Virus record (IMG/VR): IMGVR_UViG_3300037296_000114
Location: 1-61,371 of that record
Length of the DNA: 61,371 nt
Source of the DNA: a virus
Strand: one strand, 5' to 3'
The position numbers were made by a program, and so were the translations under genes. The first letter of the stretch is position 1. Each line of letters starts with the position of its first letter. The notes beneath the pieces are model-generated. The model saw only the letters and a list, made by a program, of their open reading frames with translations. It was not told the origin of the DNA and did not search any database. Shown one piece after another: positions 20,184 to 35,172 of the stretch.

Positions 20184-20214
20184 ACCATACAGGTTTGATG
20201 ATGCAGATTGCAAC
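20184..20214 (-). promoter_or_regulatory. Terminase promoter with overlapping operator
   Basis: The palindrome GATGCAGATTGCAAC (20200-20214) matches the GTTGC-N5-GCAAC operator at 9 of 10 defined positions. On the minus strand TTGCAA (20213-20208) and TATGGT (20189-20184), 18 bp apart, make a plausible -35/-10 pair in front of terS. The operator covers the -35, so repressor binding would block late transcription. This is pattern-based and not demonstrated. Confidence 0.45.
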
Positions 20215-20282
20215 AATTTGAATTTCAAAAATGGGGGCTTTGCGCCCACCACCACCTCTCTTGTTAACCTTATTACTTTACT

Positions 20283-20467
20283 GCGTCCCGTTTTGCGTCC
20301 CGTTTTGCGTCCATACATGCTCTTTATTGTTTGTTATCAACAACATATATGCGTCCCGTTTTGCGTCCCGTTTTGCGTCCGTCCTTTTTTATGCGTCCCG
20401 TTATGCGTCCATGCAGTCGGTTTATCGTTTGTTATCAGATACATATATGCGTCCCGTTTTGCGTCCC
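20283..20467. repeat. Iteron-like GCGTCC repeat array in the control region
   Basis: Ten copies of GCGTCC start at 20283, 20295, 20307, 20351, 20363, 20375, 20393, 20405, 20449 and 20461. Most are in the form GCGTCCCGTTTT with a 12-bp period; groups are separated by 44-bp steps. A 47-bp larger unit (20323-20369 and 20421-20467) is repeated with a 98-bp period and 43 matching bases, each containing GTTTGTTATCA and ACATATAT. The array lies between divergent late and early blocks. It could be a replication origin or a cooperative regulator site. Confidence 0.8.
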
Positions 20468-20477
20468 AAATCCTGAA

Positions 20478-20511
20478 TTTGTAGACATTAACCCCTGTTT
20501 TGTAGACATTA
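20478..20511. repeat. Direct repeat TTTGTAGACATTA, 21-bp period
   Basis: The 13-mer TTTGTAGACATTA occurs at 20478-20490 and again at 20499-20511, exactly two helical turns apart, just upstream of the early promoter. The spacing suggests an activator or second regulator binding on one DNA face. Confidence 0.6.
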
Positions 20512-20518
20512 TTATTTT

Positions 20519-20548
20519 GTTGCACTGTGCAACATGTTCCTGTAGAAC
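20519..20548 (+). promoter_or_regulatory. Early promoter with overlapping operator
   Basis: The perfect palindrome GTTGCACTGTGCAAC (20519-20533) contains TTGCAC as -35 (20520-20525). After 17 bp TAGAAC (20543-20548) can serve as -10. The first early gene starts at 20576 behind an AAGGAG site. The same -35-in-operator layout occurs at the integrase promoter, which supports control by the phage repressor. Confidence 0.6.
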
Positions 20549-20575
20549 TGGTGGCAGAACAAAGGAGACGGCAAG

Positions 20576-20704
20576 ATGCTTTCTGAAATTTTGAACATTA
20601 TCGAGCGCACCGCCTTGCGCGAATTTGCGGGCGACTTCGTGGGCATCATCGCCTTCGCACTGATCGTTATCTTCGGCTTTTTGTCGGTGGGGGTGGCGCA
20701 ATGA
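20576..20704 (+). CDS. Small membrane protein, first gene of the early operon
   Basis: The 42-residue protein has an N-terminal amphipathic start and one hydrophobic segment (residues ~20-40, I-I-A-F-A-L-I-V-I-F-G-F-L). The AAGGAG site lies 8 nt before ATG 20576, and the stop overlaps the next start as ATGA. Being first in the early operon, it could be a membrane-acting host-takeover or exclusion peptide, but the function is unknown. Confidence 0.6.
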   Translation: MLSEILNIIERTALREFAGDFVGIIAFALIVIFGFLSVGVAQ

Positions 20705-20880
20705 CGCGGCCAGCAACAGCCGCAGAGGTCCGCAGTCACTACAAATCAAACGGCGATACAGTCCGCATTTCGCGTGCTGGCCGCGTCACGTTTAGGTCTG
20801 ACGGTGAGGGCATTTGGCTCGAAGGCCGGTGGGTCGAGGAATATCAGGTAATGGATTGCGGAAAGGTGGTGTTGATATGA
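20701..20880 (+). CDS. Small hypothetical early protein
   Basis: The 59-residue protein is predicted mostly beta (D-T-V-R-I-S-R-A-G-R-V-T-F-R) with W-L-E-G-R-W-V-E-E-Y in the middle. It overlaps its neighbours on both sides as ATGA, so it is firmly within the operon. No family is recognised. Confidence 0.55.
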   Translation: MTRPATAAEVRSHYKSNGDTVRISRAGRVTFRSDGEGIWLEGRWVEEYQVMDCGKVVLI

Positions 20881-21170
20881 TCCGCCAGTACCGCGCAGGA
20901 CGCCACACAATGATCGACACGGCACGCGGTCGCCTGCCTGTCGGCACCATCGACGTCGGGACCATCTTCAAGCCTTCGGGCCGCTTCGCGCCGCTGATCG
21001 TAGAGGGCTGGTTGTCCCGCGATTACGCCAAGTATGACGGCGCTGCGCGCACCATGCGCACCGTCCGTATCTCTGGCGGTCACATCGCGGTCGTCCGCTG
21101 CCTCGCGTCTGGCAAGCGCATGCACGTCGCAGACTGCCGTATCCGTCAGGCGGAGGACACATTCAGATGA
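20877..21170 (+). CDS. Hypothetical early protein
   Basis: The 97-residue basic protein is rich in Arg. It has a beta-like central part (T-I-F-K-P-S-G-R-F-A-P-L-I-V-E-G) followed by V-R-I-S-G-G-H-I-A-V-V-R. No family is recognised. Start and stop overlap neighbouring genes by 4 nt. Confidence 0.55.
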   Translation: MIRQYRAGRHTMIDTARGRLPVGTIDVGTIFKPSGRFAPLIVEGWLSRDYAKYDGAARTMRTVRISGGHIAVVRCLASGKRMHVADCRIRQAEDTFR

Positions 21171-21469
21171 AAACCGTGACACGGAAGATTGGAAGCAACA
21201 AGGGCCGCCCGCGTCTCTGGATCGAGGGCGCACACCTTGTCGCGGCTGGATTTGCGCGGGGCGACAACTGGACGCTGCGCCAGACCCGCACCGGCTTGGT
21301 GATCGACAAGGACGTTGAAGGTTCCCGCAGGGTCTCGGGCAAGGGTGACCGGCCTGTGATCGACATTATGGGCGCTTCTCTCGGCGTCCTCGCGGAAGGT
21401 TTTGAGCGCGCGAAACTCACATACCGGCCTGCACAGGGCTTGATCATTATCGAAGGTGCAAGCGAATGA
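21167..21469 (+). CDS. SymE/AbrB-like small protein
   Basis: The 100-residue protein has P-R-L-W-I-E-G-A-H-L-V-A-A-G-F-A-R-G-D-N-W, which resembles the SymE toxin and AbrB-type swapped-hairpin pattern (L-x-L-x-G-x-W-L-x-x-A-G-F-x-x-G). A strand L-V-I-D-K-D follows, then S-G-K-G-D-R-P-V-I-D-I, and a second strand L-I-I-I-E-G. Such folds bind nucleic acid as regulators or act as RNA toxins. The match is a motif-level guess. It is coupled to both neighbours by 4-nt overlaps. Confidence 0.5.
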   Translation: MKTVTRKIGSNKGRPRLWIEGAHLVAAGFARGDNWTLRQTRTGLVIDKDVEGSRRVSGKGDRPVIDIMGASLGVLAEGFERAKLTYRPAQGLIIIEGASE

Positions 21470-21708
21470 AAAGCAAGATCAAACACACCTCGTTCATCAC
21501 CAGCAAAAGCGATGTTGACGCGATGGTTCGCGCCCTGTCGGTCATGCCCGACGTTGACGTAACCAGAACAGAAACAGGCGTAGTCGTGAAGGCCGGAAAG
21601 AGCGGGATTGAGGTGCTGCGCGCAATGATCGGAAGCAGCGGAAGCTACCTCGTCCGTCACGTTGAGGGCATTTTCCTCGCCCCAGAACACACAGAAAAAA
21701 AGGCATAA
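21466..21708 (+). CDS. Small hypothetical early protein
   Basis: The 80-residue protein has alternating helix and strand: S-D-V-D-A-M-V-R-A-L, V-D-V-T-R-T-E-T-G-V-V-V-K-A-G, I-E-V-L-R-A-M-I-G-S-S-G-S-Y-L-V-R-H-V. The beta-alpha-beta pattern could be an RNA- or DNA-binding small fold. No family is recognised. Confidence 0.5.
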   Translation: MKSKIKHTSFITSKSDVDAMVRALSVMPDVDVTRTETGVVVKAGKSGIEVLRAMIGSSGSYLVRHVEGIFLAPEHTEKKA

Positions 21709-21712
21709 CATC

Positions 21713-22451
21713 ATGAAAAATCAATCAACCATCGTTCAGAAAATCATCGACTTGCGCCGCAAGGCAGAAAACGATGGCTGCACAGAGGCGGAGGCTATGC
21801 AGTGTGCCGCGATGGCGTCGCGACTCATGTCCAAGCACGAAGTCACAGCCGACGATCTGGAGCGCGCGGAGGCGGCTGGCGAGGATACAGGCGTGGGCAC
21901 CGAGACGGTGGAACAAAAAACCAAATCCTGCGACGACGCGATCAAATATGCATGCGCCGGAATTGCCAAGCTGGCGGAGGTCGAGATTTATTTCAGATCG
22001 GTGAAGCGCGGGGGCCGTAAAGTTAGTGAAACCCCTGTTGTTGTTGGCCTAGAAGCTGACCGCGAATTTGCACTGTACCTGATCGAGTTGGTGCGCGGTG
22101 CTTCATTGCGGGGGGTGGAAGCAGGCGCAGGCGGACAATGGGTATTCGTCAAGCGATAGCCGTGCGCGGCGCTGGTTCAAGATCGGCTTGGGCGTGCGTG
22201 TAGGTGAGCGCGCTACCGAATTGGCAGTGGAGCGCAAGAAAGCGCGCGCGGCCACTACCGGCACCAATATCCTCGTCTTGAAGGACCAGATCATCAAAAA
22301 GGAAATGGCGGGCCTGTCGCTTCGTCAACCCCGCTCGACATCGACGGCAAGCATGGACGGCGGCGCATTTCTCGCAGGTCAGGCGGCTGGGTCTCGCGTC
22401 GGAATGGGTCGGCCTGATGGCGAAGGGTCTCGCGCACAATCACTCCGCTGA
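21713..22451 (+). pseudogene. DUF2786-type gene split by a +1 frameshift in a G run
   Basis: From ATG 21713 the frame encodes a DUF2786-like start (K-I-I-D-L-R-R-K-A-E-N, A-M-Q-C-A-A-M-A-S-R-L-M) but stops at 22159. The typical C-terminal half continues in the next frame to the stop at 22451 (R-W-F-K-I-G-L-G-V-R-V, then N-I-L-V-L-K-D-Q-I-I-K-K-E, A-G-Q-A-A-G-S-R-V-G). Removing one G from the six-G run at 22110-22115 joins both halves as S-L-R-G-W-K-Q-A-Q-A-D into one protein of about 245 residues. It may be an indel mutation, a sequencing error or a phase-variable run. The cellular role of DUF2786 proteins is not settled. Confidence 0.7.
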
Positions 22452-22529
22452 CGCATTGCCTGTCCCTGCGTGTCGGGGGCAGCGCCATGCGGCAGCGTGA
22501 AACACAAACACAAGACAGGATACAGTGAA

Positions 22530-22724
22530 ATGACCGACACCAATCTGACCCGCGACGACACCAATAGCCACATTTCAGTGATCTGGGATGCACTCATGGC
22601 ATTTCGTGAGGATTGCATACCGGAAGGCAGCGACAACCACGACCAGCAGTGGAACGACATTTGCACCGCGATGGCGTGGATTGTGGAGGATCACCCTGAC
22701 CTGACTGATCCAGTGCCAGCATGA
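22530..22724 (+). CDS. Small acidic hypothetical protein
   Basis: The 64-residue acidic protein starts at ATG 22530, with AGGA about 10 nt upstream. It is helical with several Trp residues (V-I-W-D-A-L-M-A-F-R, A-M-A-W-I-V-E-D-H). No family is recognised. Its stop overlaps the next start. Confidence 0.55.
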   Translation: MTDTNLTRDDTNSHISVIWDALMAFREDCIPEGSDNHDQQWNDICTAMAWIVEDHPDLTDPVPA

Positions 22725-22954
22725 AGCGCAAAAACAAGTCTGGGGCCGGTCGGCCTCCCACATACCCCCTTATGTCGCTCTGCGTCGGTGGCGAGTTTTA
22801 CATACCGCAATCACACGACGGCGCGCAGCCGGTCCAGAACAGCCGGAACGTGAAGGTAGCGCGGGCAGCATACACCCATGCCGCAGCGCACGACCGGAAA
22901 TACCAAGTCAGCAAGCAGCCATGCGGCGGATACACAGTCAGGAGAACACAGTGA
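22721..22954 (+). CDS. Small basic hypothetical protein
   Basis: The 77-residue basic protein starts M-K-R-K-N-K-S-G-A-G-R-P-P-T-Y-P and ends Q-P-C-G-G-Y-T-V-R-R. The middle has G-E-F-Y-I-P and a K-V-A-R-A-A-Y-T-H-A-A-A helix, the general layout of small phage DNA-binding proteins. No family is recognised. It is linked to its neighbours by 4-nt overlaps. Confidence 0.5.
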   Translation: MKRKNKSGAGRPPTYPLMSLCVGGEFYIPQSHDGAQPVQNSRNVKVARAAYTHAAAHDRKYQVSKQPCGGYTVRRTQ

Positions 22955-23844
22955 AGGAACTAGCAAAAGTAAACGGCGGGCGCATACCGCACAAAGAACA
23001 CCGGAAACTCAACATAGAGGATTCAGTCGAGTACATTCTTGATCGGCTCATTTTTGCAAAGCTGGAAGACGTCAAGGACGTACGCAAAGACTGCATGTTT
23101 ATGCCTCATGAAATGGGTCCTTTGTGGATGCGCGGGGTCGGGGAAAATGAACTCCTGTTCAACCACCCCGAAGAAGTTGATGATCCTCGGCTTGTTTGGC
23201 CTATGTCTGTCGGGACTGTCGGTTATGTGGACGATCCCGCGATGGGTCGGACAATCCAGTGCAACTCATTTGGCTCCGTTCCAGCCAAGGTTTTGCGCGG
23301 AAAGTACCGGTTCATAGGCAAATACAACATGGGCTTCGCCACGGGGCGGTTCATCGAGCATAATCAATTCATATCTTCGATTGAATATGCGTGCTGGTCG
23401 ATGAACCGGTGGAGATCTTCACAGAGGCTGCGCTTCGATCAAGCGTTTCTCAAAAACGTCCCTAACGCTGGCACCGCGCCAATAGAAAGGTACGTCGATA
23501 AGGGCGAGGATGATATTGGCGCGATGTGCGCGCTAGGTCAAAGCATAGCCCTCACCTATCGGTATGAATGGGGTGCGCAATTCTCCATTGGAAACTCTGC
23601 TAGGGTCGTCGTGCCCACTACTCCGCAGGGCATCCGGTCCCTTTTCGATGATCGAGACAAGCCTGTCGATCGTGATCGCCGTGCAGCCATCCGGCATTGG
23701 GTCAATGAGCATATGCGCCGGAAGCCAGCAGGCAGTTTCTCATCTATCCGCGAACATATGCGGGGTCAGGTCAAGTTTTCATGGCGTGGCTTTGATGTAG
23801 AAATACTGCCTAGCAAATTCGACACCGAAAGGGTGGGGAAATGA
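22951..23844 (+). CDS. Conserved phage protein of unknown function, 297 residues
   Basis: The start is GTG 22951, overlapping the previous stop as GTGA. The protein is mixed alpha/beta with P-L-W-M-R-G-V-G-E-N-E, C-N-S-F-G-S-V-P-A-K-V-L-R-G-K-Y-R-F-I-G and a C-terminal R-R-A-A-I-R-H-W-V-N-E-H-M-R-R. The last two segments resemble features seen in roseophage proteins of unknown function. It is the largest gene of the early operon and may be a key early function, but no catalytic motif can be named. Confidence 0.6.
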   Translation: MKELAKVNGGRIPHKEHRKLNIEDSVEYILDRLIFAKLEDVKDVRKDCMFMPHEMGPLWMRGVGENELLFNHPEEVDDPRLVWPMSVGTVGYVDDPAMGRTIQCNSFGSVPAKVLRGKYRFIGKYNMGFATGRFIEHNQFISSIEYACWSMNRWRSSQRLRFDQAFLKNVPNAGTAPIERYVDKGEDDIGAMCALGQSIALTYRYEWGAQFSIGNSARVVVPTTPQGIRSLFDDRDKPVDRDRRAAIRHWVNEHMRRKPAGSFSSIREHMRGQVKFSWRGFDVEILPSKFDTERVGK

Positions 23845-24005
23845 GCAATCTCGAAGAACACGAAGCCGAGCAGGCTGAAATCACAGCCGCGTGCGAGGCT
23901 GGCGAGTGCGACCACCCCGAGTGTCAGCCGCAGGACGAACCCGCGACCGGCATGCGCTGCCCAGACTGCACAAAAACAGGAATCGTACAGGAGTTCCAGA
24001 TATGA
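23841..24005 (+). CDS. Small Cys-rich (zinc-binding) protein
   Basis: The 54-residue acidic protein contains C-E-A-G-E-C-D-H-P-E-C and later C-P-D-C, enough Cys/His for one zinc site. Both ends overlap neighbouring genes as ATGA. The function is unknown. Confidence 0.55.
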   Translation: MSNLEEHEAEQAEITAACEAGECDHPECQPQDEPATGMRCPDCTKTGIVQEFQI

Positions 24006-24418
24006 ACACCAGGCTCGAATTACCCAAGCCTCCAAAACGCCCCTGCGGCTCATGCCCATACCGGAAGGACGTGCCATCCGGCGTGTGGGCTGCGGAGGAG
24101 TACGCCAAGCTGCCCCAATACGACGGCGATACGGGCGAACAGTTCATGAAGGGGGCGGTGGCTCTGTTTATGTGCCACCAGCGCGACGGGTGCCTGTGCG
24201 GCGGCTGGCTACAAACTCACGGCGCGGACCATCTTGCGGCGCTTCGCGTGCGCGCGGTGGACCCATCGGCCTATGGCTATCAGTCTGACGTTGAGACGTT
24301 TGCGAGAGGCGAGGAGGCGATGCTGCACGGCTTGGCCGACATTGACAGCCCAAGCGATAAAGCGCTGAAAATATCCTCCAAGATTGCCCCGCTCGTAGGG
24401 CGCAGGAGGGCATCATGA
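24002..24418 (+). CDS. DUF6283-like Cys-rich protein
   Basis: The 138-residue protein has the DUF6283 pattern: P-C-G-S-C-P-Y-R-K-D-V-P-S-G-V-W near residues 14-30, then E-E-Y-A-K-L-P-Q-Y-D, and later F-M-C-H-Q-R-D-G-C-L-C-G-G-W-L. The conserved Cys/His residues probably bind metal. The family is common in actinobacterial and proteobacterial phages with no known role. Confidence 0.7.
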   Translation: MNTRLELPKPPKRPCGSCPYRKDVPSGVWAAEEYAKLPQYDGDTGEQFMKGAVALFMCHQRDGCLCGGWLQTHGADHLAALRVRAVDPSAYGYQSDVETFARGEEAMLHGLADIDSPSDKALKISSKIAPLVGRRRAS

Positions 24419-24597
24419 TCCGCGCTCTATGCCGCATCATCCGCCGCCAGAAACCGGTCCGAAAGGGCGTTGAGTGTCTTGTGCATTGCTTCGATTTCAA
24501 CCCGACACGCCCGACAACAGGCGCGCGGGATCAATGGACACAAGACCAGCTTGCGGCAGTGTGCCGTTTGGAAGGAGATACCGATGCAGCCCAGTGA
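24415..24597 (+). CDS. Small basic hypothetical protein
   Basis: The 60-residue protein has a basic N-terminus (I-R-A-L-C-R-I-I-R-R-Q-K) and a polar remainder. It overlaps the previous gene by 4 nt and the next by 14 nt. No family is recognised; existence is supported mainly by operon packing. Confidence 0.45.
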   Translation: MIRALCRIIRRQKPVRKGVECLVHCFDFNPTRPTTGARDQWTQDQLAAVCRLEGDTDAAQ

Positions 24598-24736
24598 TGA
24601 AGCCACCCGCCAGCGCCGCATGATCCTCGCCCACCACGCATTCAACGCCGCGCTCCTGCTGACCGTGATCGGCGCGATGCTGTTTGTCGCAGCGGCGGGC
24701 GCTCTGCCAACTGAATTGGAGGGGCATGGGCGATGA
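24584..24736 (+). CDS. Small single-span membrane protein
   Basis: The 50-residue protein has one membrane segment (residues ~20-41, A-A-L-L-L-T-V-I-G-A-M-L-F-V-A-A-A-G) after a basic N-terminus. ATG 24584 follows a good GGAGA site. The topology suggests inner-membrane location. The function is unknown. Confidence 0.6.
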   Translation: MQPSDEATRQRRMILAHHAFNAALLLTVIGAMLFVAAAGALPTELEGHGR

Positions 24737-25026
24737 ATATTAACCCTGAAGAATATGACGTAATCGCGCACGCTCTAGGGCTGAGCGGGACATATGACCG
24801 ATACAAGCCACGCCGCCGCTGGGCATACCGCAACTACTTCGCGGCGGGCGGAAAGGATGTGCAGACTTGGGAAAGCCTTGTGGCGCGAGGATTGGCCGCC
24901 ACTCTGCGTCCAGTTAATCCTGACAACACCACGCCGGGATTTTCTGTAACGCACGCGGGCACTGTAGCTGCCGGACTGCGGAATTATGTTCCTGCCAGCA
25001 TCTTGAAGCGGGAGATGCCAGAATGA
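24733..25026 (+). CDS. Conserved small phage protein
   Basis: The 97-residue protein has Y-R-N-Y-F-A-A-G-G-K-D-V-Q-T-W-E-S-L-V-A-R-G-L-A followed by P-G-F-S-V-T-H-A-G. This layout is seen in many small phage proteins where a short helix packs on a beta hairpin. The function is unknown. Confidence 0.6.
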   Translation: MNINPEEYDVIAHALGLSGTYDRYKPRRRWAYRNYFAAGGKDVQTWESLVARGLAATLRPVNPDNTTPGFSVTHAGTVAAGLRNYVPASILKREMPE

Positions 25027-25235: not shown

Positions 25236-25237
25236 AT

Positions 25238-27469: not shown

Positions 27470-27946
27470 CTATTGGGGATGATCTTCTGGTGCCTTTGGT
27501 GGCTCGAATGGCTTATGCGGCGGCAGGCGCGGCGGGCTTGAGTTAAGAAAGCCTGCCTCGGATAGTATCTCGTCCGTTTCCTCCTTTGACAGTTTGGGCT
27601 CCTTTTTGCGCGCCTCCATTGCTGGGTCTGCTTTGCTGGTCGGCGTCACTCGCGGGACCAGCTTGATCGCTTCAACATAGATCGCACCGGGCGTCGGCTT
27701 GTCCGACCGCTTTGGATGGGCGCGCAAGTAGCGGATGCACGCCTCTTCAACAGCATCTTGAGGCAGGCTTTGCAACACCTTGGCCCAATCCCTGCCCATA
27801 GAGTGAGATAGCGGGATAGGATCATCGTCACGGTAATAGTGGGATAGGAGCGTGTATACGCGCCCGCCCAGCCATTCAAGATGCGCTACGCGCTCCGGCG
27901 ACAAATGCGTTGAGGCTTTGCTCTGTTCTGTCGGGACTTCTAGCAC
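27470..27946 (-). CDS. Replication accessory / helicase-loader-like protein
   Basis: The ~158-residue protein has a helical domain with W-A-K-V-L-Q-S-L-P-Q-D-A-V-E-E-A-C-I-R-Y-L and H-P-K-R-S-D-K-P-T-P-G-A-I. This is the pattern of small loader or primosome-type proteins encoded next to phage initiators. A long charged, Pro-rich tail follows. GTG 27946 is chosen because AAAGGA lies 6-7 nt upstream; ATG 27961 has a poor site. It overlaps the initiator gene by ~70 nt. The role is inferred from pattern and neighbour. Confidence 0.5.
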   Translation of the reverse strand: MLEVPTEQSKASTHLSPERVAHLEWLGGRVYTLLSHYYRDDDPIPLSHSMGRDWAKVLQSLPQDAVEEACIRYLRAHPKRSDKPTPGAIYVEAIKLVPRVTPTSKADPAMEARKKEPKLSKEETDEILSEAGFLNSSPPRLPPHKPFEPPKAPEDHPQ

Positions 27947-28655
27947 TTGATTTCCTTTCATATGGCTCTTTTGGTGTTAAGGCGGGCGCTGTGTTCAGGC
28001 CCGCGCGCCGCGTCATAGCTTTCGTGAAAAATCTGAATGAGTTTGGCGGATCGTCACCGGCTACGCGCGTGGCCATAACTTCGCGCACGACGTCAACTTG
28101 ATCTGCCACGGTCAGGCCCAGATCGACTGACCATTTTCGCGCCTCGATCATGTCGGACGATGTGCCGGCCGCGCGGGACGATGGGTCAGCGCCCATTGCT
28201 GCCAGCAGGCTTTCCCGTTGCCGGTCACCGTCTGGCGGGCGCTCCCGCTCAATTGGCGGCCCGCCGTTGTGCAGGTTCATTGGCTTTGTGGTTGCGTCCT
28301 GCTTTTGGCTCGTTTGATAATCGTCATAATTCAGGATTTCGATATGCGTTCTACTGCCCCTGCGTTGACCGGATGATCCGACTTCCACCATGCCTTCGTC
28401 GCAGAGACGGGCGAGGAACCCACGGACCCGCTTGTCAGACTCCCAGCCGAAGGCGGCGGCAAGATCACGCAGCGTGGTCACGATGGACCCCCGTGGAACC
28501 AATATCCGCTTGCTGCCGACTTTATGCGTCGTGTCTCTGTATGCGGCATTGGCAATCAGCCATATCCAAGCCTCGCGGGAGGACATAGGTTCACCGTCGA
28601 ACATATCATGATCGAAGATCCTGCGGTGAAGCTGTATCCATCCCGGCTTGATCAT
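27876..28655 (-). CDS. Replication initiator-like winged-helix protein
   Basis: The 259-residue protein begins G-W-I-Q-L-H-R-R-I-F-D-H-D-M-F, then S-S-R-E-A-W-I-W-L-I-A-N-A, matching phage replisome organiser or O-like proteins. It goes on with a winged-helix segment (L-R-D-L-A-A-A-F-G-W-E-S-D-K-R-V-R-G-F-L, then V-E-V-G-S-S-G). A variable linker (residues ~125-165) precedes a helical end. The protein would bind the phage origin and recruit host replication proteins. It is translated with the DUF1064 gene (4-nt overlap) and the loader-like gene. Confidence 0.75.
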   Translation of the reverse strand: MIKPGWIQLHRRIFDHDMFDGEPMSSREAWIWLIANAAYRDTTHKVGSKRILVPRGSIVTTLRDLAAAFGWESDKRVRGFLARLCDEGMVEVGSSGQRRGSRTHIEILNYDDYQTSQKQDATTKPMNLHNGGPPIERERPPDGDRQRESLLAAMGADPSSRAAGTSSDMIEARKWSVDLGLTVADQVDVVREVMATRVAGDDPPNSFRFFTKAMTRRAGLNTAPALTPKEPYERKSSARSPDRTEQSLNAFVAGARSAS

Positions 28656-29044
28656 ACCTCGACCACCTCGATCCCCTGACTGCGCAGGATCGCCTTTTTG
28701 AGCGAGTAGAGCGGGAGGATCATGCCTTTTGCGTCCTCGGTGACCGTCTGGCCCGTGGTTACGTCTGTATATTGGAAGTCAGCGATGTAGACCAAGCCGT
28801 GATTGTTGGAGCCAAGCAACTGTCCTGACGCGCCCATGAGCGGGATACGGACCTGCAATTTTAGATCACGAATGAGGCCGTGCCGCTGCTTATCCCGCAG
28901 GATCAGGTAGCGATCAGCCTCGCGCTTACTGTCAAATTCGATGCCAGCAACGGTCACCTTTTTGGCGCTATACTTGTTCTTACGCGGCTCATCGCCGCTT
29001 TTTCTTTGCGTGGCGAGGAACTGCGCGGCGGTCATTTTTTCCAT
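28652..29044 (-). CDS. DUF1064 protein, PDDEXK-nuclease-like
   Basis: The 130-residue protein has the DUF1064 pattern: N-K-Y-S-A-K-K-V, G-I-E-F-D-S-K-R-E-A-D-R-Y, Y-I-A-D-F-Q-Y and E-D-A-K-G-M. The E-A-D, D-F and E-D-x-K residues fit a PDDEXK nuclease core, and family members are placed near phage replication genes as possible resolvases or nucleases. ATG 29044 has a GAGGT site 7-8 nt upstream. It is first in the replication operon. Confidence 0.75.
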   Translation of the reverse strand: MEKMTAAQFLATQRKSGDEPRKNKYSAKKVTVAGIEFDSKREADRYLILRDKQRHGLIRDLKLQVRIPLMGASGQLLGSNNHGLVYIADFQYTDVTTGQTVTEDAKGMILPLYSLKKAILRSQGIEVVEV

Positions 29045-29197
29045 TCTACGCACCTCGCGTTATCAACCCCGCCTCTATCTAAAGGCTCTCGGATGGGTAG
29101 CCGATTGGTGGCGTGATTTCGGTTACAAGAATCCAGAAGGCGCCCGAAGGCATCACACCCATGCACTGCCCAATTCGCAGTGAGAAAAACGCGCCTC

Positions 29198-29434
29198 CTA
29201 TGGGTCGGGGTCACCTTCGTCCACCTCTTCCGGCAGGACAAACGGAACCCAGCTATTCGGGCAAACAATCCCACCGGTTGCGATGTGGATTTTTTGCTGT
29301 GTGCGCCCGCCTGGTGTTCGCTTACCGCTCAAGATCAAGCTAAGATACGAACGACCGATTCCCAGATGCTTCGCAACAACGGCTTGCGATGCGTCTGGAA
29401 ACTTTGCGGAGATATACTGTTCAAGTGTCATCAT
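29198..29434 (-). CDS. Cro-like helix-turn-helix regulator
   Basis: The ~78-residue protein has a helix-turn-helix with T-L-E-Q-Y-I-S-A-K-F, Q-A-V-V-A-K-H-L-G-I-G-R-S-Y-L-S-L-I-L-S-G-K-R-T-P, the type found in Cro- or YdaS-like phage regulators. It is divergent from the XRE regulator at 29559. The start (ATGATG 29434/29431) has no ribosome site, and the operator GTTGCCATTTGCAAC ends 5 nt upstream, so the message may be leaderless. A TTGACA -35 is at 29473-29468. It probably competes with the XRE repressor for the same operators. Confidence 0.75.
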   Translation of the reverse strand: MMTLEQYISAKFPDASQAVVAKHLGIGRSYLSLILSGKRTPGGRTQQKIHIATGGIVCPNSWVPFVLPEEVDEGDPDP

Positions 29435-29438
29435 AATA

Positions 29439-29453
29439 GTTGCCATTTGCAAC
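29439..29453. promoter_or_regulatory. Operator GTTGCCATTTGCAAC at the Cro-like gene
   Basis: A perfect GTTGC-N5-GCAAC palindrome lies just ahead of the Cro-like start, where it would cover the -10 region of its promoter. The same palindrome family occurs at the other control points of this phage, so this is most likely the lysogeny repressor/Cro binding site. Confidence 0.7.
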
Positions 29454-29485
29454 ATTTTGCAAAGCAGTGTCAACCGTCCTTATTG

Positions 29486-29500
29486 GTTACGCCTTGCAAC
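29486..29500. promoter_or_regulatory. Operator GTTACGCCTTGCAAC between the divergent regulators
   Basis: This second member of the operator family (GTTAC-N5-GCAAC) lies 47 bp from the first, between the Cro-like and XRE genes. It is placed to control the XRE gene and, together with the first, to form the genetic switch. Confidence 0.65.
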
Positions 29501-29558
29501 ACAGGCGCTTTTCGTGTCTAAATCAGACTTCAACCCCATATATTTAAGGGAAATTAGT

Positions 29559-29873
29559 ATGCGTGTAAGGATAGCAGAGGTCAGGAAGTCGCTTGGTGTC
29601 AGCCAAGGAGAACTTGCTGAAAGAGTCGGGATGTCGCGCCCGTACCTTGCTCAAATTGAGAACGGGACTCGCAACATGACAACAGCAAAGCAGGTTTCTA
29701 TCGCAGAGGCGCTGGGTGTCGACCCCGGCAAGCTGGTAGACTTCACCGCTCCAGACCCGAGTGATGAAGACTATTTATTGCAATCGTTTAGATCGCTTTC
29801 GCCACAACAACGAAGGGAGTGGTTGGATTTGGCCCGCGTGGCTACGGGGCTTGCGAAGCCAAAAGGCGGATGA
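29559..29873 (+). CDS. XRE-family repressor candidate (CI-like)
   Basis: The 104-residue protein has an N-terminal XRE helix-turn-helix: I-A-E-V-R-K-S-L-G-V-S-Q-G-E-L-A-E-R-V-G-M-S, then Y-L-A-Q-I-E-N-G-T-R-N (residues ~4-36). The short C-terminal part is D-Y-L-L-Q-S-F-R-S-L-S-P-Q-Q-R-R-E-W. There is no LexA-type protease domain, so induction would not use RecA-stimulated self-cleavage. ATG 29559 follows AAGGGA. A TATATT sequence at 29539-29544 may be the -10. It is probably the lysogenic repressor of the operators described. Confidence 0.75.
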   Translation: MRVRIAEVRKSLGVSQGELAERVGMSRPYLAQIENGTRNMTTAKQVSIAEALGVDPGKLVDFTAPDPSDEDYLLQSFRSLSPQQRREWLDLARVATGLAKPKGG

Positions 29874-29994
29874 AGTCTTTGCGCTGATCTGCTGTCATTG
29901 AGCGGAAAATGCGCAAAGCCTCCTGCACGTCCTTTTCAACCCCTGCATCTACCCTAATGTCTTCCTGCCTATTTCGATCCGCGCTGCTGGTCAT
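29842..29994 (-). CDS. Small antisense protein resembling the repressor C-terminus
   Basis: A 50-residue frame from ATG 29994 (GGGGAG site 6 nt upstream) overlaps the 3' end of the XRE gene on the other strand by 32 nt. Its C-terminal half reads R-I-F-R-S-M-T-A-D-Q-R-K-D-F-I-R-L-L-A. It parallels the repressor C-terminus (S-F-R-S-L-S-P-Q-Q-R-R-E-W-L-D-L-A-R). It has no DNA-binding domain. It may bind the repressor and modify its activity. Operators at 30077-30109 lie upstream, so it could itself be under switch control. Confidence 0.55.
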   Translation of the reverse strand: MTSSADRNRQEDIRVDAGVEKDVQEALRIFRSMTADQRKDFIRLLASQAP

Positions 29995-30076
29995 AGCAAA
30001 CTCCCCTATTGGATTTCATCAAAAAAAACACGGCGCGCCGATCAAACTCTAGCGAGAAAGGCAGCGCGCCGATTGT

Positions 30077-30109
30077 GTTACATTGCGCAACAATTAGGCA
30101 TGATGCAAC
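30077..30109. promoter_or_regulatory. Operator pair upstream of the antisense gene
   Basis: GTTACATTGCGCAAC (30077-30091) fits the operator consensus. Three bases on, TAGGCATGATGCAAC (30095-30109) has one intact half-site and one degenerate one. A second feature of this region is a GC-rich GGCGCGCC palindrome near 30030 and a partial copy near 30065. This stretch of the 30000-30216 gap has no other gene. Confidence 0.55.
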
Positions 30110-30178
30110 ACTACTACACGGTTTTTTTGACCGGCTCTAGTCAAAATCAGTATTTTTTATTGCATTCCGCTGCTACTT

Positions 30179-30230
30179 GTTGCAAATAGTAACAATAAGT
30201 AACGGAGGACCGCAAATTGCATGATGCAAT
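30179..30230. promoter_or_regulatory. Operators at the start of the recombination operon
   Basis: GTTGCAAATAGTAAC (30179-30193) lies in front of the recombination genes and ATTGCATGATGCAAT (30216-30230), a fully symmetrical variant, covers the TTG start codon at 30217. Binding here would block both transcription and translation initiation of the exonuclease-RecT operon. Confidence 0.6.
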
Positions 30231-30516
30231 CAAGAGCGATGCAGGCGCAGCGCCTGTAGATAAAAAGCTGGTGGAGTTGATCGACGCCACCATCCACCTA
30301 TTCGCACCCATGAAGGACGGCGGGAAGTACATCGCCCTGATCGGGAATATGTCTTATGCCTTCAAGGGCAACACGCCTCTAGCTGCGCACAAACGCGCAG
30401 ACGACTGGCGCAAGGGTGAGTGGGAGAAGATCACCAGCAAGGCGCACCGTGAGCGGCATGCCGCAACAAAAGCGCCAGCGAAGGCGGCAGCATCCGCAGA
30501 TGTGGTGCAGCCATGA
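30217..30516 (+). CDS. Hypothetical protein, first gene of the recombination operon
   Basis: The 99-residue protein starts with TTG 30217, supported by a GGAGG site 8 nt upstream. Sequence: K-L-V-E-L-I-D-A-T-I-H-L-F-A-P, then Y-I-A-L-I-G-N-M-S-Y, and a basic Ala/Lys-rich C-terminus. No family is recognised. It overlaps the exonuclease gene by 4 nt, so a role in recombination is possible. Confidence 0.6.
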   Translation: MHDAIKSDAGAAPVDKKLVELIDATIHLFAPMKDGGKYIALIGNMSYAFKGNTPLAAHKRADDWRKGEWEKITSKAHRERHAATKAPAKAAASADVVQP

Positions 30517-31505
30517 GCGACATTGCGGTTATCGACCCTATCGGTACAGGCAGCAACCTTATCCGCCAGACCTGCTGGACGCCGGATATGCCAAACGAGG
30601 TGTATCACGGGGACTGCTGCATTGGCCCATCCATCTCGGCCAGCAGTGTGAAGGCGATCCTTTCGGACCCCGCCGAATTTTGGCGCACGTCTGCGATCAA
30701 CCAGCACGCTGCGGAGCGCGAGGTGAAGCAGGCGTTTAGCGTAGGAACGACTGCGCACACGATGGTTTTGGAACCCGAGTTGCTGGCGGAAACCATCGCG
30801 GTCGTACCAGCGGAAATTCTTGCCTCAAACGGTGCCCTTTCAACGAAAGCGGCGAAAGAGTTTGTCATTGATCAGACCGAAGCGGGGCGCACCGTTGTCA
30901 CGCCTGATCAATGGGACGCCGTGTGCAGCATGGCGGAGAACATCAAGGCGAACGGTCTGGTGATGCGCGCTCTCGAAGGCGGGATCATCGAACCATCCCT
31001 CTTCGTGCGAGACGAAGAAACCGGCCTGTTCATGAAAAGTCGTCCCGACGTCGCGCCTGCGGAGAGCGGGCGGTTTATCGTGGACCTCAAGACCACGGAC
31101 CACGAAAGCATTGCAGCTTGGGAGAAGGCCGCCACCGTTGATCTGCGCTACGACATTCAGGGCGCGCTGATGATGAACCACGTTCAGAAGACCATGAACG
31201 TCACCGCCGCAGGCGTGATGTATGTGGTCTCCTGCAAAAAGGAGCCGCACCGCGTCGGCGTACGCGTCCTGCGGCCCAACACAGAATCCGGCCAAGACCT
31301 TCTTGCGACCGGCTGGGCTGACATTCTGGAAGCGCAGCGGATTTTCAACGCCTGCTGGTCAGACGGCGTGTTTCCGTCGCCTTGGGACAGCGTGTCGGAC
31401 CTTGAGCCACCGGAGTTTCGCAGGCGGCAGATCGTCAGGGCGCTGGAAGATGCCGGATACCCTGAAACACCATTCTCACATTGGGGGGAGCCATCAACAT
31501 GGTAA
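30513..31505 (+). CDS. RecE/exonuclease VIII-like PDDEXK nuclease
   Basis: The 330-residue protein has the domain pattern of phage PD-(D/E)XK exonucleases paired with RecT: G-T-T-A-H-T-M-V-L-E-P with H82, S-R-P-D-V with D179, and V-D-L-K-T-T (D191, K193). Later Y-D-I-Q-G-A-L-M is the typical helix with an essential Gln/Tyr. It would resect 5' ends of double-stranded DNA to give single-stranded tails for RecT. A short unknown gene lies between it and recT. Confidence 0.85.
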   Translation: MSDIAVIDPIGTGSNLIRQTCWTPDMPNEVYHGDCCIGPSISASSVKAILSDPAEFWRTSAINQHAAEREVKQAFSVGTTAHTMVLEPELLAETIAVVPAEILASNGALSTKAAKEFVIDQTEAGRTVVTPDQWDAVCSMAENIKANGLVMRALEGGIIEPSLFVRDEETGLFMKSRPDVAPAESGRFIVDLKTTDHESIAAWEKAATVDLRYDIQGALMMNHVQKTMNVTAAGVMYVVSCKKEPHRVGVRVLRPNTESGQDLLATGWADILEAQRIFNACWSDGVFPSPWDSVSDLEPPEFRRRQIVRALEDAGYPETPFSHWGEPSTW

Positions 31506-31963
31506 TCAATGCAAAGGGCGAAGGGATGCCGTCTGGCGCCTTCGCCACGGTTATAGAGGGCAAGCACGAAGGCCCATTGCTAATGGAGGCTGTGGGCAGC
31601 GGCTTCACATATGACAGCGCGGGCGAACGTGCCGAGAAAATGCGCCAGCGCCCTGACATTATTCGCACTTGCGTTGTCCAGCTTCGCTTTTTTACCGGCA
31701 ACGAACTGCTCTTTTCGCAGGTCGGCGGTGCCCCCTTGGTTGTAGATTTCGACACCACCCTTTTCGGCTTCATCATCGAGAAGAAAAGCTACGGGCCGAC
31801 CCTTTGGGAAGGTGCGGCTGGGTGTCTGAACGAAGGCCGCGCCAATGAAGCGTACATGCGCTTTGCATCCCAGCCCGACACCATCCGAGCGTGCATTGTC
31901 GGACTGACATTCGCGCAAGGCAATCATCAACTTTTCCTCGATCTTGAAAGGATCAACCAATGA
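31499..31963 (+). CDS. Hypothetical protein between exonuclease and recT
   Basis: The 154-residue protein overlaps both neighbours (ATG 31499 lies inside the last codons of the exonuclease). It has two related halves: I-R-T-C-V-V-Q-L-R-F-F-T-G-N-E-L-L-F and I-R-A-C-I-V-G-L-T-F-A-Q-G-N-H-Q-L-F. These suggest an internal duplication. Its function is unknown; position suggests an accessory to recombination. Confidence 0.6.
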   Translation: MVINAKGEGMPSGAFATVIEGKHEGPLLMEAVGSGFTYDSAGERAEKMRQRPDIIRTCVVQLRFFTGNELLFSQVGGAPLVVDFDTTLFGFIIEKKSYGPTLWEGAAGCLNEGRANEAYMRFASQPDTIRACIVGLTFAQGNHQLFLDLERINQ

Positions 31964-33150
31964 ACGAACTGACCACGCAGCAAAACGCACCGGCCCCGCA
32001 GCGCCAAGGCGCAGAAAACATTGATTGGGGTGTATCTCCACTCATGAACCCAGCGCGGTTTGATCACATGTACCGCATTGGCCGCATGCTGGCCTCATCC
32101 GCGCTTTGGCCTGCACACCTGAAAGGCCGCAACCCAGAAGAGGGAGCGGCTAACGGCATGCTGTGCCTGAACATGGCAGAACGCCTACGCGAAGATCCAC
32201 TTACCGTTGCACAGAACATCTACTTTGTTTCCGGCAAGCCCGGATGGAACACCACCTACATGATCGCCAAAGCGAATATGCACGGAGTGTTCAGCGATCC
32301 GATTGATTGGGACGTGAAGGGGACCGGCGATAACCTGTCTGTGACTGCTTTCGGGCTGATGAAAGGCACGGGAAAGCGCGTCGAGGTCACATGCGGCATG
32401 GCGATGGCAAAGGCCGAGGGCTGGACGAAGAACAGCAAGTATCAATCCATGCCGGAGCAAATGCTGCGCTATCGCTCTGCCGCGTTCCTGATCCGCCTGT
32501 ACGCGCCGGAAGTGATGATCGGCGTGCCTGCCCAGATCGAACTCGAACTGGACCGCGATTATAAGGACGTGACGCCCCAAGAAGCCGCGCCACAGGCGTC
32601 GATCATGGAGGCTGTGACCGGCAGCGTTGAAGGTAATGCGGGACGCATTGCGGCACCGGAGGCAGCAAAGGTTGACCGCACGCCCCCTGCCCCCGCCGTG
32701 ACGGAAAAGACCGAGGCAGACGCCAAGGCCAAGGCCGAAGCGGAAGCCGCGGCTAAAGAGAAGGCCGAGAAAGCAGAGGCTGACGCCAAGGAAAAGGCGG
32801 AGAAGGCAGCCAAGGTGCAAGCCGACAAGGAGGCGAAGGAGGCCGCAGAACAGGGGGCCGCAGCGAAGGCAGAAGCTGACCACAACGCGAAAGTGAAGGC
32901 TAACGCAGACGCCGCCGCACAGCAGGAAACGCCGCACGATCCAGACACCGGCGAGGTTTTGGATCAGCCCCCTGCAACCGGCGAAGCATACGAGCGCATG
33001 GCAGCGACGGCCAAGGCGATCATGCGCGACCTCGAAGGTAACAGCGACCCCGACGGCGTGCTGCAATTCTACGAAGAGCAGATCGACCAGATGAAAGCGC
33101 AGGCGCCCGAACTGCACGCTGAAATCATGGAAGCAGCCGCTCCCGCGTAA
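31960..33150 (+). CDS. recT: RecT-family single-strand annealing protein with long Ala/Lys linker
   Basis: The 396-residue protein is RecT-like: I-G-R-M-L-A-S-S-A-L-W-P, Q-N-I-Y-F-V-S-G-K-P-G-W, then W-T-K-N-S-K-Y-Q-S-M-P-E-Q-M-L-R-Y-R-S-A-A-F-L-I-R, the conserved block of these proteins. RecT anneals complementary single strands in phage recombination. The core ends near residue ~205. A ~110-residue low-complexity region of repeated A-K-E-K-A-E units follows, then a short acidic helical end, making it longer than E. coli RecT (269 residues). It is followed by a terminator. Confidence 0.85.
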   Translation: MNELTTQQNAPAPQRQGAENIDWGVSPLMNPARFDHMYRIGRMLASSALWPAHLKGRNPEEGAANGMLCLNMAERLREDPLTVAQNIYFVSGKPGWNTTYMIAKANMHGVFSDPIDWDVKGTGDNLSVTAFGLMKGTGKRVEVTCGMAMAKAEGWTKNSKYQSMPEQMLRYRSAAFLIRLYAPEVMIGVPAQIELELDRDYKDVTPQEAAPQASIMEAVTGSVEGNAGRIAAPEAAKVDRTPPAPAVTEKTEADAKAKAEAEAAAKEKAEKAEADAKEKAEKAAKVQADKEAKEAAEQGAAAKAEADHNAKVKANADAAAQQETPHDPDTGEVLDQPPATGEAYERMAATAKAIMRDLEGNSDPDGVLQFYEEQIDQMKAQAPELHAEIMEAAAPA

Positions 33151-33183
33151 CACCGCAGCGCGCAACCTCCCGCGCGCCACCTT

Positions 33184-33211
33184 GCGGGGCGGCCAAGTCG
33201 CCCCGCCTTTT
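33184..33211 (+). terminator. Terminator after recT
   Basis: An 8-bp stem pairs GCGGGGCG (33184-33191) with CGCCCCGC (33199-33206), with a 7-nt loop and CTTTT after it. It should end most of the recombination transcript before the next group of plus-strand genes. Confidence 0.8.
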
Positions 33212-33235
33212 CACCAATCAAAGTTGGAACTGCAA

Positions 33236-33391
33236 GTGACCACAACACAGCACGACATTGAAAACATGAGCGAGGCCGACATGAAAGCGGCCTGCAAGAA
33301 GCTGGAAGCCGAAGAGGGCCCAACACGCGCGGTTGAACTGCGCAAGTCTTGGAACTTTGAACACCAGCCATGGAAGAAAAAGAACAGATAG
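33236..33391 (+). CDS. Small hypothetical protein
   Basis: The 51-residue protein starts at GTG 33236 with a weak GGA site. It is charged and helical (M-S-E-A-D-M-K-A-A-C-K-K-L-E-A-E-E) and ends W-K-K-K-N-R. No family is recognised. Confidence 0.45.
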   Translation: MTTTQHDIENMSEADMKAACKKLEAEEGPTRAVELRKSWNFEHQPWKKKNR

Positions 33392-33400
33392 GAGGCCAAG

Positions 33401-33889
33401 ATGGCGCTACTTAAATACAAGCCGGAGCAAGTAGATCGTGCCCTTGAGCAACGTGAACGCGGGCGCTCATTTGGCGAGATTGCAGTGTTCACCGGAATGA
33501 CGGTCAACGCAGTGAAGTACCACTGCCTGAAAAATGGTGTAGAGGGGCCGCGCCTGTCGGAACTGTCGCCTCCCCGTGCCGAGCGCAAGACATATGTGCG
33601 CAACGGCATAGTCGTGCGCCTGTTCACCGCAGAAGAGGACCGCACAATCCTCGAAATGTCCATGTCAGGGAAGACCTCACGCCAGATCGGCGCGGCTATG
33701 GGGCGGGATCGCACTGTCGTCGCAAATCGCCTTCGCGCGCTGGCGCGGCGTGAACAGCGTAAGGAAATACCCCCAGTCTGCGAGACGTGCGATGGTGAAG
33801 GCGAGACTGTGGTTGCGGTCCTTCTTCCATCCGGCCATTCCGAACAGATAGGGACGTGCCCAGATTGCAGCGGGAGGGGCACAGCATGA
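33401..33889 (+). CDS. DNA-binding protein with Myb/GcrA-like helix-turn-helix and Cys-rich C-terminus
   Basis: The 162-residue protein has an N-terminal sequence with R-G-R-S-F-G-E-I-A-V-F-T-G-M-T-V-N-A-V-K-Y-H-C and a second, Myb-like unit (F-T-A-E-E-D-R-T-I-L-E-M-S, G-K-T-S-R-Q-I-G-A-A-M-G-R-D-R-T-V-V-A-N-R-L). The C-terminus has C-E-T-C-D-G-E-G and C-P-D-C-S-G-R-G, the DnaJ-type zinc pattern. The domain mix suggests a transcription regulator acting on phage or host promoters; it is a candidate activator for the late-type elements (inference). An AGGAGG site precedes the ATG. Confidence 0.65.
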   Translation: MALLKYKPEQVDRALEQRERGRSFGEIAVFTGMTVNAVKYHCLKNGVEGPRLSELSPPRAERKTYVRNGIVVRLFTAEEDRTILEMSMSGKTSRQIGAAMGRDRTVVANRLRALARREQRKEIPPVCETCDGEGETVVAVLLPSGHSEQIGTCPDCSGRGTA

Positions 33890-34107
33890 TCCCTTGTAAA
33901 TTCCAGATGGACAGGAGCGGCAGCACGATCCTTGCCTACAGCGAGGACCGCACGCCCATACACATAATGGTATTAGACCTAGAACTGGTTGATCACATTG
34001 CCAAGCACGTCGACCTGACGCCGTTTTTAAAGGGCTATGCGATGGCTGACGTGGACGCTGCGGGGCAACTTATCTTGGGTGACGTTCTACCCGACCAGGC
34101 GTTTTAA
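33886..34107 (+). CDS. Small hypothetical protein
   Basis: The 73-residue protein has a beta-rich N-terminus (C-K-F-Q-M-D-R-S-G-S-T-I-L-A-Y) and a helical middle (E-L-V-D-H-I-A-K-H-V-D-L-T-P-F-L). It overlaps its neighbours (ATGA at its start, one base at its end). No family is recognised. Confidence 0.5.
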   Translation: MIPCKFQMDRSGSTILAYSEDRTPIHIMVLDLELVDHIAKHVDLTPFLKGYAMADVDAAGQLILGDVLPDQAF

Positions 34108-34811
34108 TGGCCGCCTCAACAAAATCTCTGTTCAAGGCAACGAAGCAGAAACGGCACGTCGATCGCTCGCAGTCTGTGATTGCTGGCCTGCATGATCAGA
34201 CCAAGCCCGCCGACGTGCGCGACCCGCTGGACTATGACCCAACGCCCATTGACGCCACACTGGCGTTTCTGGGCGCGGAGGGCGACCGCATGCGCGAAAT
34301 AGGCGGGCCTGTCTGGGAGCCAGCAGTGGGCGGCGGTCACATGGCGCGCGGGCTGGAACACGCTGGCTTTGAGGTGATCGGGTCCGACATTGTGAACAGG
34401 GGCTGGCCCAGAACAATCACGCGCCCGTTTTACAGTTGGGACGGGACGCACCGCAACATGGGCTGCGCTCCGGCGCGCCTGCTTGTGACGAACCCGCCCT
34501 ACAACGAGGTCAGCGCGCGTGACGGGCATGGGCGATGGCTCCGGCACATCATGGACTTGGGTGTCCCGTATGCCGCCATGCTGCTGAACTGGGATTGGAT
34601 CGCTGCGAGGATCAACGGCATGGACGAACTGCACCAGCTATTTCCGGTCAGCCGCGCCTATGTCTGCACATGGAAGATCGACTTTCGCGGTCTTGGATCA
34701 CCGCCCCAGCGCAATGGCTGGCTGGTCTGGGACCGCGAATGGCAGGGCGAGACGGTATTGAGACGCCTCTACAAAGAGGCCGGTGATCCAAAACAGGAGA
34801 AACTGCTATGA
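34107..34811 (+). CDS. DNA N6-adenine (or N4-cytosine) methyltransferase
   Basis: The 234-residue protein has the S-adenosylmethionine-binding motif W-E-P-A-V-G-G-G-H (residues ~70-78) followed by V-I-G-S-D-I, and the catalytic motif N-P-P-Y (residues ~129-132). This is typical of amino-methyltransferases, most often N6-adenine. It probably methylates phage DNA for protection from host restriction, or alters regulation through GANTC-like sites used by Alphaproteobacteria. No target recognition domain or nuclease partner is present nearby. Confidence 0.8.
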   Translation: MAASTKSLFKATKQKRHVDRSQSVIAGLHDQTKPADVRDPLDYDPTPIDATLAFLGAEGDRMREIGGPVWEPAVGGGHMARGLEHAGFEVIGSDIVNRGWPRTITRPFYSWDGTHRNMGCAPARLLVTNPPYNEVSARDGHGRWLRHIMDLGVPYAAMLLNWDWIAARINGMDELHQLFPVSRAYVCTWKIDFRGLGSPPQRNGWLVWDREWQGETVLRRLYKEAGDPKQEKLL

Positions 34812-34981
34812 CCGCGCCGCAGTACATCAAGGTCGCTCATGTCGCGACGCAGTACGGTATCAGCCGCTACAAGTTATATCGTTTGCAAAACGAAGGCCGG
34901 TTGACCATTCACAAGTTGGACGGGGCCGCGCTGGTGAAGGTGGCCGACCTTGTTGGGCTGATTGAGGGGGCACCGGCCTAG
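34808..34981 (+). CDS. Excisionase-like MerR/AlpA-type helix-turn-helix protein
   Basis: The 57-residue protein has a winged-HTH of the HTH_17/Xis type: Y-I-K-V-A-H-V-A-T-Q-Y-G-I-S-R-Y-K-L-Y-R-L-Q-N, then V-K-V-A-D-L-V. Its place directly upstream of the integrase, across a stretch with direct repeats, makes excisionase the most likely role. It overlaps the methyltransferase stop by 4 nt. Family call by motif only. Confidence 0.6.
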   Translation: MTAPQYIKVAHVATQYGISRYKLYRLQNEGRLTIHKLDGAALVKVADLVGLIEGAPA

Positions 34982-35014
34982 ACCGCAGCACAATCTACTT
35001 GGGGGGTAAATTGG

Positions 35015-35039
35015 GGGGTGGCGAAAGCCGCCCCTTTTT
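35015..35039 (+). terminator. Terminator after the xis-like gene
   Basis: GGGGTGGC (35015-35022) pairs with GCCGCCCC (35027-35034) around a GAAA loop and is followed by five T residues. It ends the plus-strand operon before the integrase. Its left arm overlaps the first arm-type repeat. Confidence 0.8.
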
Positions 35040-35142
35040 CTTTGCTATAAAAATAGGGGCTTTTCGCTAAATTCAACGTGCCCACCACATGCACATTGTA
35101 GCTGTAGCAACATGTAGCATGAGCGAAATATCCCCATAATAT

Positions 35143-35172
35143 GTTGCACCATGTAACACTCGCGGCTACAAA
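35143..35172 (+). promoter_or_regulatory. Integrase promoter with overlapping operator
   Basis: GTTGCACCATGTAAC (35143-35157) is a consensus operator. TTGCAC (35144-35149) and TACAAA (35167-35172) with 17 bp between them form a likely -35/-10 pair, the same layout as the early promoter. Weaker half-sites occur at 35088-35118. The integrase starts at 35244. Confidence 0.6.

Follow-up and report, generated by a model that had tools for sequence, protein, structure and literature searches.

A repeated palindrome raises the question of which protein reads it and which promoters it serves. In the virus record IMGVR_UViG_3300037296_000114, a complete IMG/VR entry of 61,371 bp (the window, i.e. the whole stretch analysed here), the palindrome GTTGC-N5-GCAAC recurs at widely separated places, and a preliminary description had assigned eight copies to a single repressor, probably an XRE-family protein, which could shut all lytic and integration promoters. 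To judge from the sequences, the palindromes are very probably the operators of the phage's own CI/Cro-type switch, which has a short, SinR-like XRE repressor and has been extended to the terminase, integrase and late promoters.

Palindromes in the window

Genes were called with a codon model trained on long open reading frames (ORFs), three genes being adjusted by hand, and 6.5 kb of non-coding DNA remained. In this DNA, nine sites match GTTGC-N5-GCAAC at at least 9 of 10 positions, while 1000 dinucleotide shuffles of the non-coding DNA gave a mean of 0.42 sites and a maximum of three. Together with four sites in the 54.9 kb of coding DNA, the window holds 13 such sites, i.e. the motif is not equally frequent inside genes but about 19 times denser in non-coding DNA. 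Among spacers of 0 to 12 bp, only spacer 5 was enriched; spacers 0-4 and 6-12 gave 0-3 non-coding sites each. Moreover, a leave-one-out scan of the 61 kb with a matrix gave rank 1 to 9 of 10 sites and rank 11 to the site at 30216, all positions being compared. The sites suggest the fuller consensus GTTGCA-N3-TGCAAC. We conclude that the operator family is not the result of chance.

All eight palindromes of the preliminary description were recovered where it had placed them, seven in intergenic DNA and the eighth, at 30216, over a start codon. The sites at 38672 and 54074 are additional. The family had been called genome-wide; the sites are indeed spread across the phage, but the scope is phage-wide only, the record being the whole virus. 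Similarly, the proposal that a -35 hexamer is embedded in the palindrome at three sites is plausible but weak, since the pairs picked by eye, TTGCAC-17-TAGAAC (20519), TTGCAA-18-TATGGT (20200, minus strand) and TTGCAC-17-TACAAA (35143), match at only about 4/6 plus 4/6 positions. At 54074, with a terminator-like hairpin on one side and the leftward operon of a giant gene on the other, the promoter match is 9/12 with the -35 within the palindrome.

Leftward from the switch, the genes follow in the order Cro-like helix-turn-helix (HTH) protein, DUF1064/Holliday-junction-type protein and DnaD-like loader; rightward, the order is XRE gene, intergenic operator cluster, 99-amino-acid (aa) ORF and exonuclease VIII-type gene. 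Therefore, the sites at 29439 and 29486 correspond in layout to the operator O_R of lambda, and those at 30077 and 30179 (and 30216) to O_L.

Table 1. Palindromic sites and genes of the switch and of the distant loci; unless a contig is named, positions are those of the window. Match is given to GTTGC-N5-GCAAC, and rank is that in the leave-one-out scan.
Feature	Position	Strand	Location or content	Match or evidence
Operator at terminase small subunit (terS) promoter	20200..20214		58 bp before terS (minus-strand gene)	9/10, rank 1
Operator GTTGCACTGTGCAAC	20519..20533		upstream of rightward 20576 operon	10/10, rank 1
Operator GTTGCCATTTGCAAC	29439..29453		O_R-like; 4-7 bp upstream of Cro-like start	10/10 (perfect), rank 1
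Operator GTTACGCCTTGCAAC	29486..29500		O_R-like; about 60-73 bp upstream of XRE	9/10, rank 1
Operator GTTACATTGCGCAAC	30077..30091		O_L-like cluster; upstream of leftward 50-aa ORF	9/10, rank 1
Operator GTTGCAAATAGTAAC	30179..30193		O_L-like cluster; upstream of recombination operon	9/10, rank 1
Weak candidate operator ATTGCATGATGCAAT	30216..30230		over TTG start of recombination operon	8/10; perfect ATTGC-N5-GCAAT dyad; rank 11
Operator at integrase promoter	35143..35157		87 bp before integrase	9/10, rank 1
Operator GTTTCTATTTGCAAC	38672..38686		between leftward amidase-type gene and rightward TerB-like gene	9/10, rank 1
Operator GTTTCAAAATGCAAC	54074..54088		upstream of leftward operon holding the 4733-aa gene	9/10, rank 1
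Terminase small subunit	19258..20142	-		Terminase_2, E 6e-23
Leftward replication genes	27876..29053	-	Holliday-junction-type (DUF1064) and DnaD-like loader	
Cro-like HTH protein	29198..29434	-	heads leftward replication operon	HTH_3, E 5e-5
XRE (CI-like, SinR-like) repressor	29559..29873	+	104 aa	HTH_3, E 5e-14
50-aa ORF, candidate antirepressor	29842..29994	-	convergent with XRE	resembles XRE C-terminal hairpin
Start of rightward recombination operon	30217..31505	+	99-aa ORF and exonuclease VIII-type gene	DUF3799 / phrog_412
Tyrosine integrase	35208..36434	+	ATG start probably 35244	Phage_integrase, Arm-DNA-bind_3
Small convergent ORFs in other contigs	L058 1359-1568; L064 1371-1580; L059 1365-1571			resemble repressor hairpin

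The sites at 20200 and 20519 lie at either end of the intergenic region that separates terS from the divergent 20576 operon. Between them, TGCGTCCCGTTT repeats occupy 20282-20380, with more GCGTCC copies to 20468; the TGCGTCCCGTTT repeats are possibly an origin or packaging signal. Next to the additional site at 38672 lies a TerB-like gene of the tellurite-resistance family (38892-39323). The giant gene is a single 4733-aa ORF of 14.2 kb (39550-53751), of which a fragment-like homologue adjoins the XRE gene in the genome G393. Giant proteins of this kind are typical of Bcep22-like podoviruses. The large terminase subunit TerL is nearest to those of 61-63 kb phages such as Burkholderia JC1, BcepIL02 and Erwinia PEp14 (about 48-52% identity), and the close relatives found all lie within Rhodobacteraceae genomes; the virus is a phage of marine-type alphaproteobacteria. 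Because the integrase gene lies mid-record with phage genes on either side, the record resembles the genome of a free phage in permuted form.

Operators in close relatives and in other switches

In Sulfitobacter brevis (L013, genome G001), an XRE orthologue 65% identical to the repressor has GTTACATGTTGCAAC 66-80 bp upstream and adjoins an integrase 65% identical to that of the window. When 60 kb of this contig was scanned with the window matrix, the top matches were at 1246 (XRE; score 20.3) and at 2743 (integrase, GTTGCAACTTGTATC; score 17.1), the next scoring 10.9. At the integrase, the position aligned to the window site reads GTTTCACCAGAAAC, and the better match lies about 30 bp further on. 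In G393, the XRE orthologue is 61% identical and both terS and the integrase are homologous to those of the window; GTTGCTTCCTGCACC precedes terS by 57 bp (58 bp in the window) and TTTGCAGGATGCAAC precedes the integrase gene by 87 bp, as in the window. G393 has two perfect dyads nearby in addition, and the joint rank of the four sites was reached by column-permuted matrices with p about 0.002. Thus, in the comparison with related phages that had been proposed as a check, the operator positions at terminase and integrase proved to be conserved in G393, and S. brevis has an upstream match at its integrase.

L012 encodes a related integrase, yet lacks the operator; a frameshifted XRE remnant in G112 is likewise without it, as are the viral XRE matches L004-L011. 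Genus-level searches yielded no further orthologues, at the DNA level the immunity region matched no phage, scans for related loci with the Cro-like protein and with the exonuclease detected no relatives, and a plasmid search returned only unrelated short HTH matches. No published repressor or operator for this phage group was found in literature searches. Directly upstream of the XRE remnant of G112, which is related to the window repressor, CRISPR-like repeats are present (L049 9301-9420).

More distant switches carry other palindromes at corresponding places. In G265, where XRE is about 42% identical and the Cro/DUF1064/recombination layout and the structural genes are as in the window, four TTTGC/TTAGC-N5-GCAAA sites are found, two on either side of the XRE gene; two weaker matches upstream of terS are only suggestive. 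In G315, GTCGC/TTCGC-N5-GCGAC dyads flank XRE on both sides. Similarly, in Sulfitobacter phage pCB2047-A the repressor gene is flanked on both sides by GTCGA-N5-TCGAC, with one dyad before the Cro-like gene as at 29439, and in Paracoccus phage Pthi1 by CAGGAATATTCCTG-type dyads. G231 and G052 have the two-sided arrangement too, and G307 and G214 have clear dyads on the upstream side only. In matching place to the window gene, Cro-like homologues are encoded in G265, pCB2047-A and Pthi1. The position of the dyads is conserved and their sequence follows the phage. Because phages and prophages of the same layout have other palindromes at the two corresponding places beside the XRE gene, the XRE protein is indicated as the binder.

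Candidate binders and alternative explanations

The recognition helices point the same way. Among about 40 XRE homologues, a window-type site within 150 bp upstream was found only where the recognition helix is identical or closely similar; more distant XRE proteins are without a window-type operator and have their own palindromes at the corresponding places. Helices with Gln at the position equivalent to window Gln32 (window, S. brevis, G265) are accompanied by TTGC half-sites, and helices with Glu there (G315, G231, G307, G214, pCB2047-A) by TCGC or TCGA; G052, with Met in the helix and GTCGC/GTCAC, fits neither class, and the sample is small, the lineages being few and not independent. This pattern agrees with direct reading of the operators by XRE. 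The XRE protein, proposed earlier as the single repressor, is thus the best candidate, with the operator upstream of its S. brevis orthologue and near its G393 orthologue.

The Cro-like proteins follow the helix rule in part (Gln in G265, Glu in G315 and pCB2047-A, Leu in the window). Cro-like proteins normally share CI operators, and the window Cro-like protein likely shares the XRE sites. It could even be the protein that chiefly binds the distant sites, in which case the family would serve mainly as a lytic-phase off-switch and XRE would read the sites of the immunity region only; the similarity of the Cro-like and XRE recognition helices within each phage would fit this. We consider it improbable, since S. 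brevis and G393 keep the sites and an XRE orthologue while tblastn detected no Cro-like homologue in the retrieved 60 kb, and since in the helix of the window Cro-like protein Leu replaces the Gln found in XRE and in the G265 Cro-like protein. It is known that phages make use of host regulators, and the overlap of some sites with possible -35 hexamers would suit a host protein whose regulon the phage had borrowed. However, the motif was not enriched in the host-type genome of S. brevis (10 sites versus 20 for the reversed control), and from phage to phage the sequence changes while the position is kept; the idea of a host regulon was rejected on the lack of enrichment and is very unlikely.

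An alternative that concerns individual members is that their roles differ, and that the integrase site belongs to the attP/integrase arm region rather than to the repressor. Conserved TGTAGC/TGTAGCA repeats, probably the arm-binding sites of the integrase, lie upstream of the integrase in three relatives (window 35095-35130, L013 8345-8385, L042 19000-19030), and the displaced match in S. brevis would suit such a role; yet the dyad at the integrase fits the operator consensus and lies equally far from the integrase start in G393, and we give this alternative slightly less credence still than the host regulator. The least probable explanation, and a most unlikely one, is that the listed dyads are coincidences picked by eye. 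Allowing one mismatch, RTTGC-N5-GCAAY gives 24 matches where 11.5 are expected, and many of the weak ones are noise; however, the shuffles, the spacer controls, the leave-one-out ranks and the positional conservation disfavour chance for every site except 30216. On its own, the motif lacks specificity: a motif-first scan of viral contigs for tandem sites returned 57 contigs of which only three had an XRE-type gene within 500 bp, about 1.4 being expected; one of the three, L090, has divergent XRE genes around the tandem. In five viral contigs (L079, L081, L089, L105, L116), three to seven close GTTGCANNNTGCAAC-like dyads occur with no XRE-type gene of the window repressor's family nearby; a similar motif may serve a different regulator or iterons there.

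Four observations weigh against operators of a dispersed XRE-controlled switch. The -10/-35 assignments are weak. The site at 30216, although it does cover the TTG start of the ORF at 30217-30516 as had been described, is the weakest of all and does not stand out in the leave-one-out scan, so that its role as an operator is doubtful. The XRE gene of G393 has no site within 150 bp; the nearest lies about 310 bp upstream and precedes a small leading ORF. Finally, strong operators are confined to the immunity region in pCB2047-A and Pthi1, and dispersal is therefore not general for this type of switch.

In the mechanism that we propose for the XRE-controlled switch, a dimer of the 104-aa protein would bind GTTGC-N5-GCAAC. 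Through the two sites located between the diverging genes for XRE and the Cro-like protein, it would hold down the leftward replication operon and modulate XRE, while the two or three sites beyond the XRE gene would repress the rightward recombination operon and the leftward 50-aa ORF. The copies at terS, the 20576 operon, the integrase, the TerB-like region and the operon of the 4733-aa gene would place late and integration promoters under XRE, and the prophage would be silenced at many promoters simultaneously; the Cro-like protein would probably read some of the same sites. The earlier claim that lytic and integration promoters are silenced gains from the conserved positions at terminase and integrase, but its wording, all lytic promoters, is too strong.

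A candidate off-switch and comparison with known systems

In Pfam, the XRE protein matched only HTH families and no peptidase domain. Its AlphaFold model consists of the HTH and a C-terminal two-helix hairpin (helices 70-78 and 82-95; pLDDT, the predicted local distance difference test score, 83), and the best full-length match of the model in the PDB by Foldseek is SinR in the SinR/SinI complex (1b0n_A, E 1.2e-4); the sequence match to SinR covers the HTH only. The model thus suggests the fold of the SinR repressor. The 50-aa ORF aligns with the XRE tail (FRSMTADQRKDF versus FRSLSPQQRREW; local alignment shuffle p 0.0002), with an E value of 0.5 in a hidden Markov model (HMM) search over 13,626 ORFs. 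Elsewhere, small convergent ORFs also overlap the XRE 3' end, and likeness to the hairpin of their own XRE protein is significant in three of seven loci tested: besides the window these are G315 (HMM E 7e-6, p 0.003) and G307 (p 0.0006). The likeness is weak in G265 (p 0.026), and the convergent ORFs of pCB2047-A, Pthi1 and G214 were not significant individually. The combined p of 4e-7 across loci overstates the significance, some of the cases having been chosen by HMM or by eye. Neither XRE nor the 50-aa ORF matched Pfam SinI, and the stand-alone hairpin ORF of G315, searched across 397 genomes, was recovered from no genome but its own, which probably reflects a short and diverged query.

In SinR/SinI, the two proteins meet through hairpins that are conserved in both, and SinI prevents SinR from binding DNA (PMC3163267). 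Tentatively, and at odds that we put somewhat against it, Rhodobacteraceae phage switches may pair a SinR-like repressor with a tiny convergent ORF, here at 29842-29994, that copies the repressor's own oligomerisation hairpin. Because the region upstream of the 50-aa ORF carries repressor operators, the two proteins, repressor and antirepressor, would make up a bistable loop of the double-negative kind, and this loop might release about ten dispersed operators simultaneously and without self-cleavage. The window shares with the Bacillus subtilis pair a short XRE protein with a C-terminal helical hairpin and, as a candidate counterpart of SinI, a nearby small ORF resembling that hairpin; it differs in being a phage switch with a convergent small ORF and a different operator.

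With lambda CI/Cro, the window shares divergent repressor and Cro-like genes, both HTH_3 here, operators between them (29439/29486) and a second cluster beyond the repressor gene (30077/30179); in both, the Cro-like gene heads the replication operon and the far cluster faces the recombination operon. The window differs from lambda in its 5-N5-5 operators, in the further operators at terminase, integrase and late promoters, and in a short repressor without the S24/LexA-like self-cleavage domain of lambda CI, a domain absent from many phage repressors. Hence, the layout is that of a CI/Cro immunity region and the repressor is not of the self-cleaving CI type; by analogy, the system would work like a lambda-type switch with dispersed operators. 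Operators repeated far from the immunity region, in the window at 20200, 20519, 35143, 38672 and 54074, are also a feature of mycobacteriophage L5 and Bacillus phage SPbeta. In L5 (Cluster A), one repressor serves many genome-wide operators or stoperators whose sequences diverge with the repressor (PMC6550527). These number 20-30, mostly lie outside promoters and are oriented with transcription, whereas the window has about 10 palindromic sites, nearly all near promoters. In SPbeta, the 15-bp SPBRE lies before scattered phage operons and is bound by the master repressor MrpR (PMC10516654); MrpR is tyrosine-recombinase-like, whereas the window repressor is an HTH_3 protein. pCB2047-A and Pthi1 share the gene order around the repressor and the dyads on both sides, and differ in operator sequence and in having no strong copies outside the immunity region.

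Altogether, the general scheme is known, and the scattered arrangement and the possible built-in off-switch are new details. For an uncultured temperate phage, the analysis provides a concrete list of operators and a candidate for the protein that binds them. It describes a CI/Cro layout in which the operators and the recognition helix of the repressor change in step, in a small sample of lineages that are not independent. It also links, at the level of sequence, a short repressor without a self-cleavage domain to the predicted control of integration and packaging promoters. Should the hairpin-only ORF prove to be an antirepressor, the switching-off of short repressors that lack a self-cleavage domain would be accounted for.

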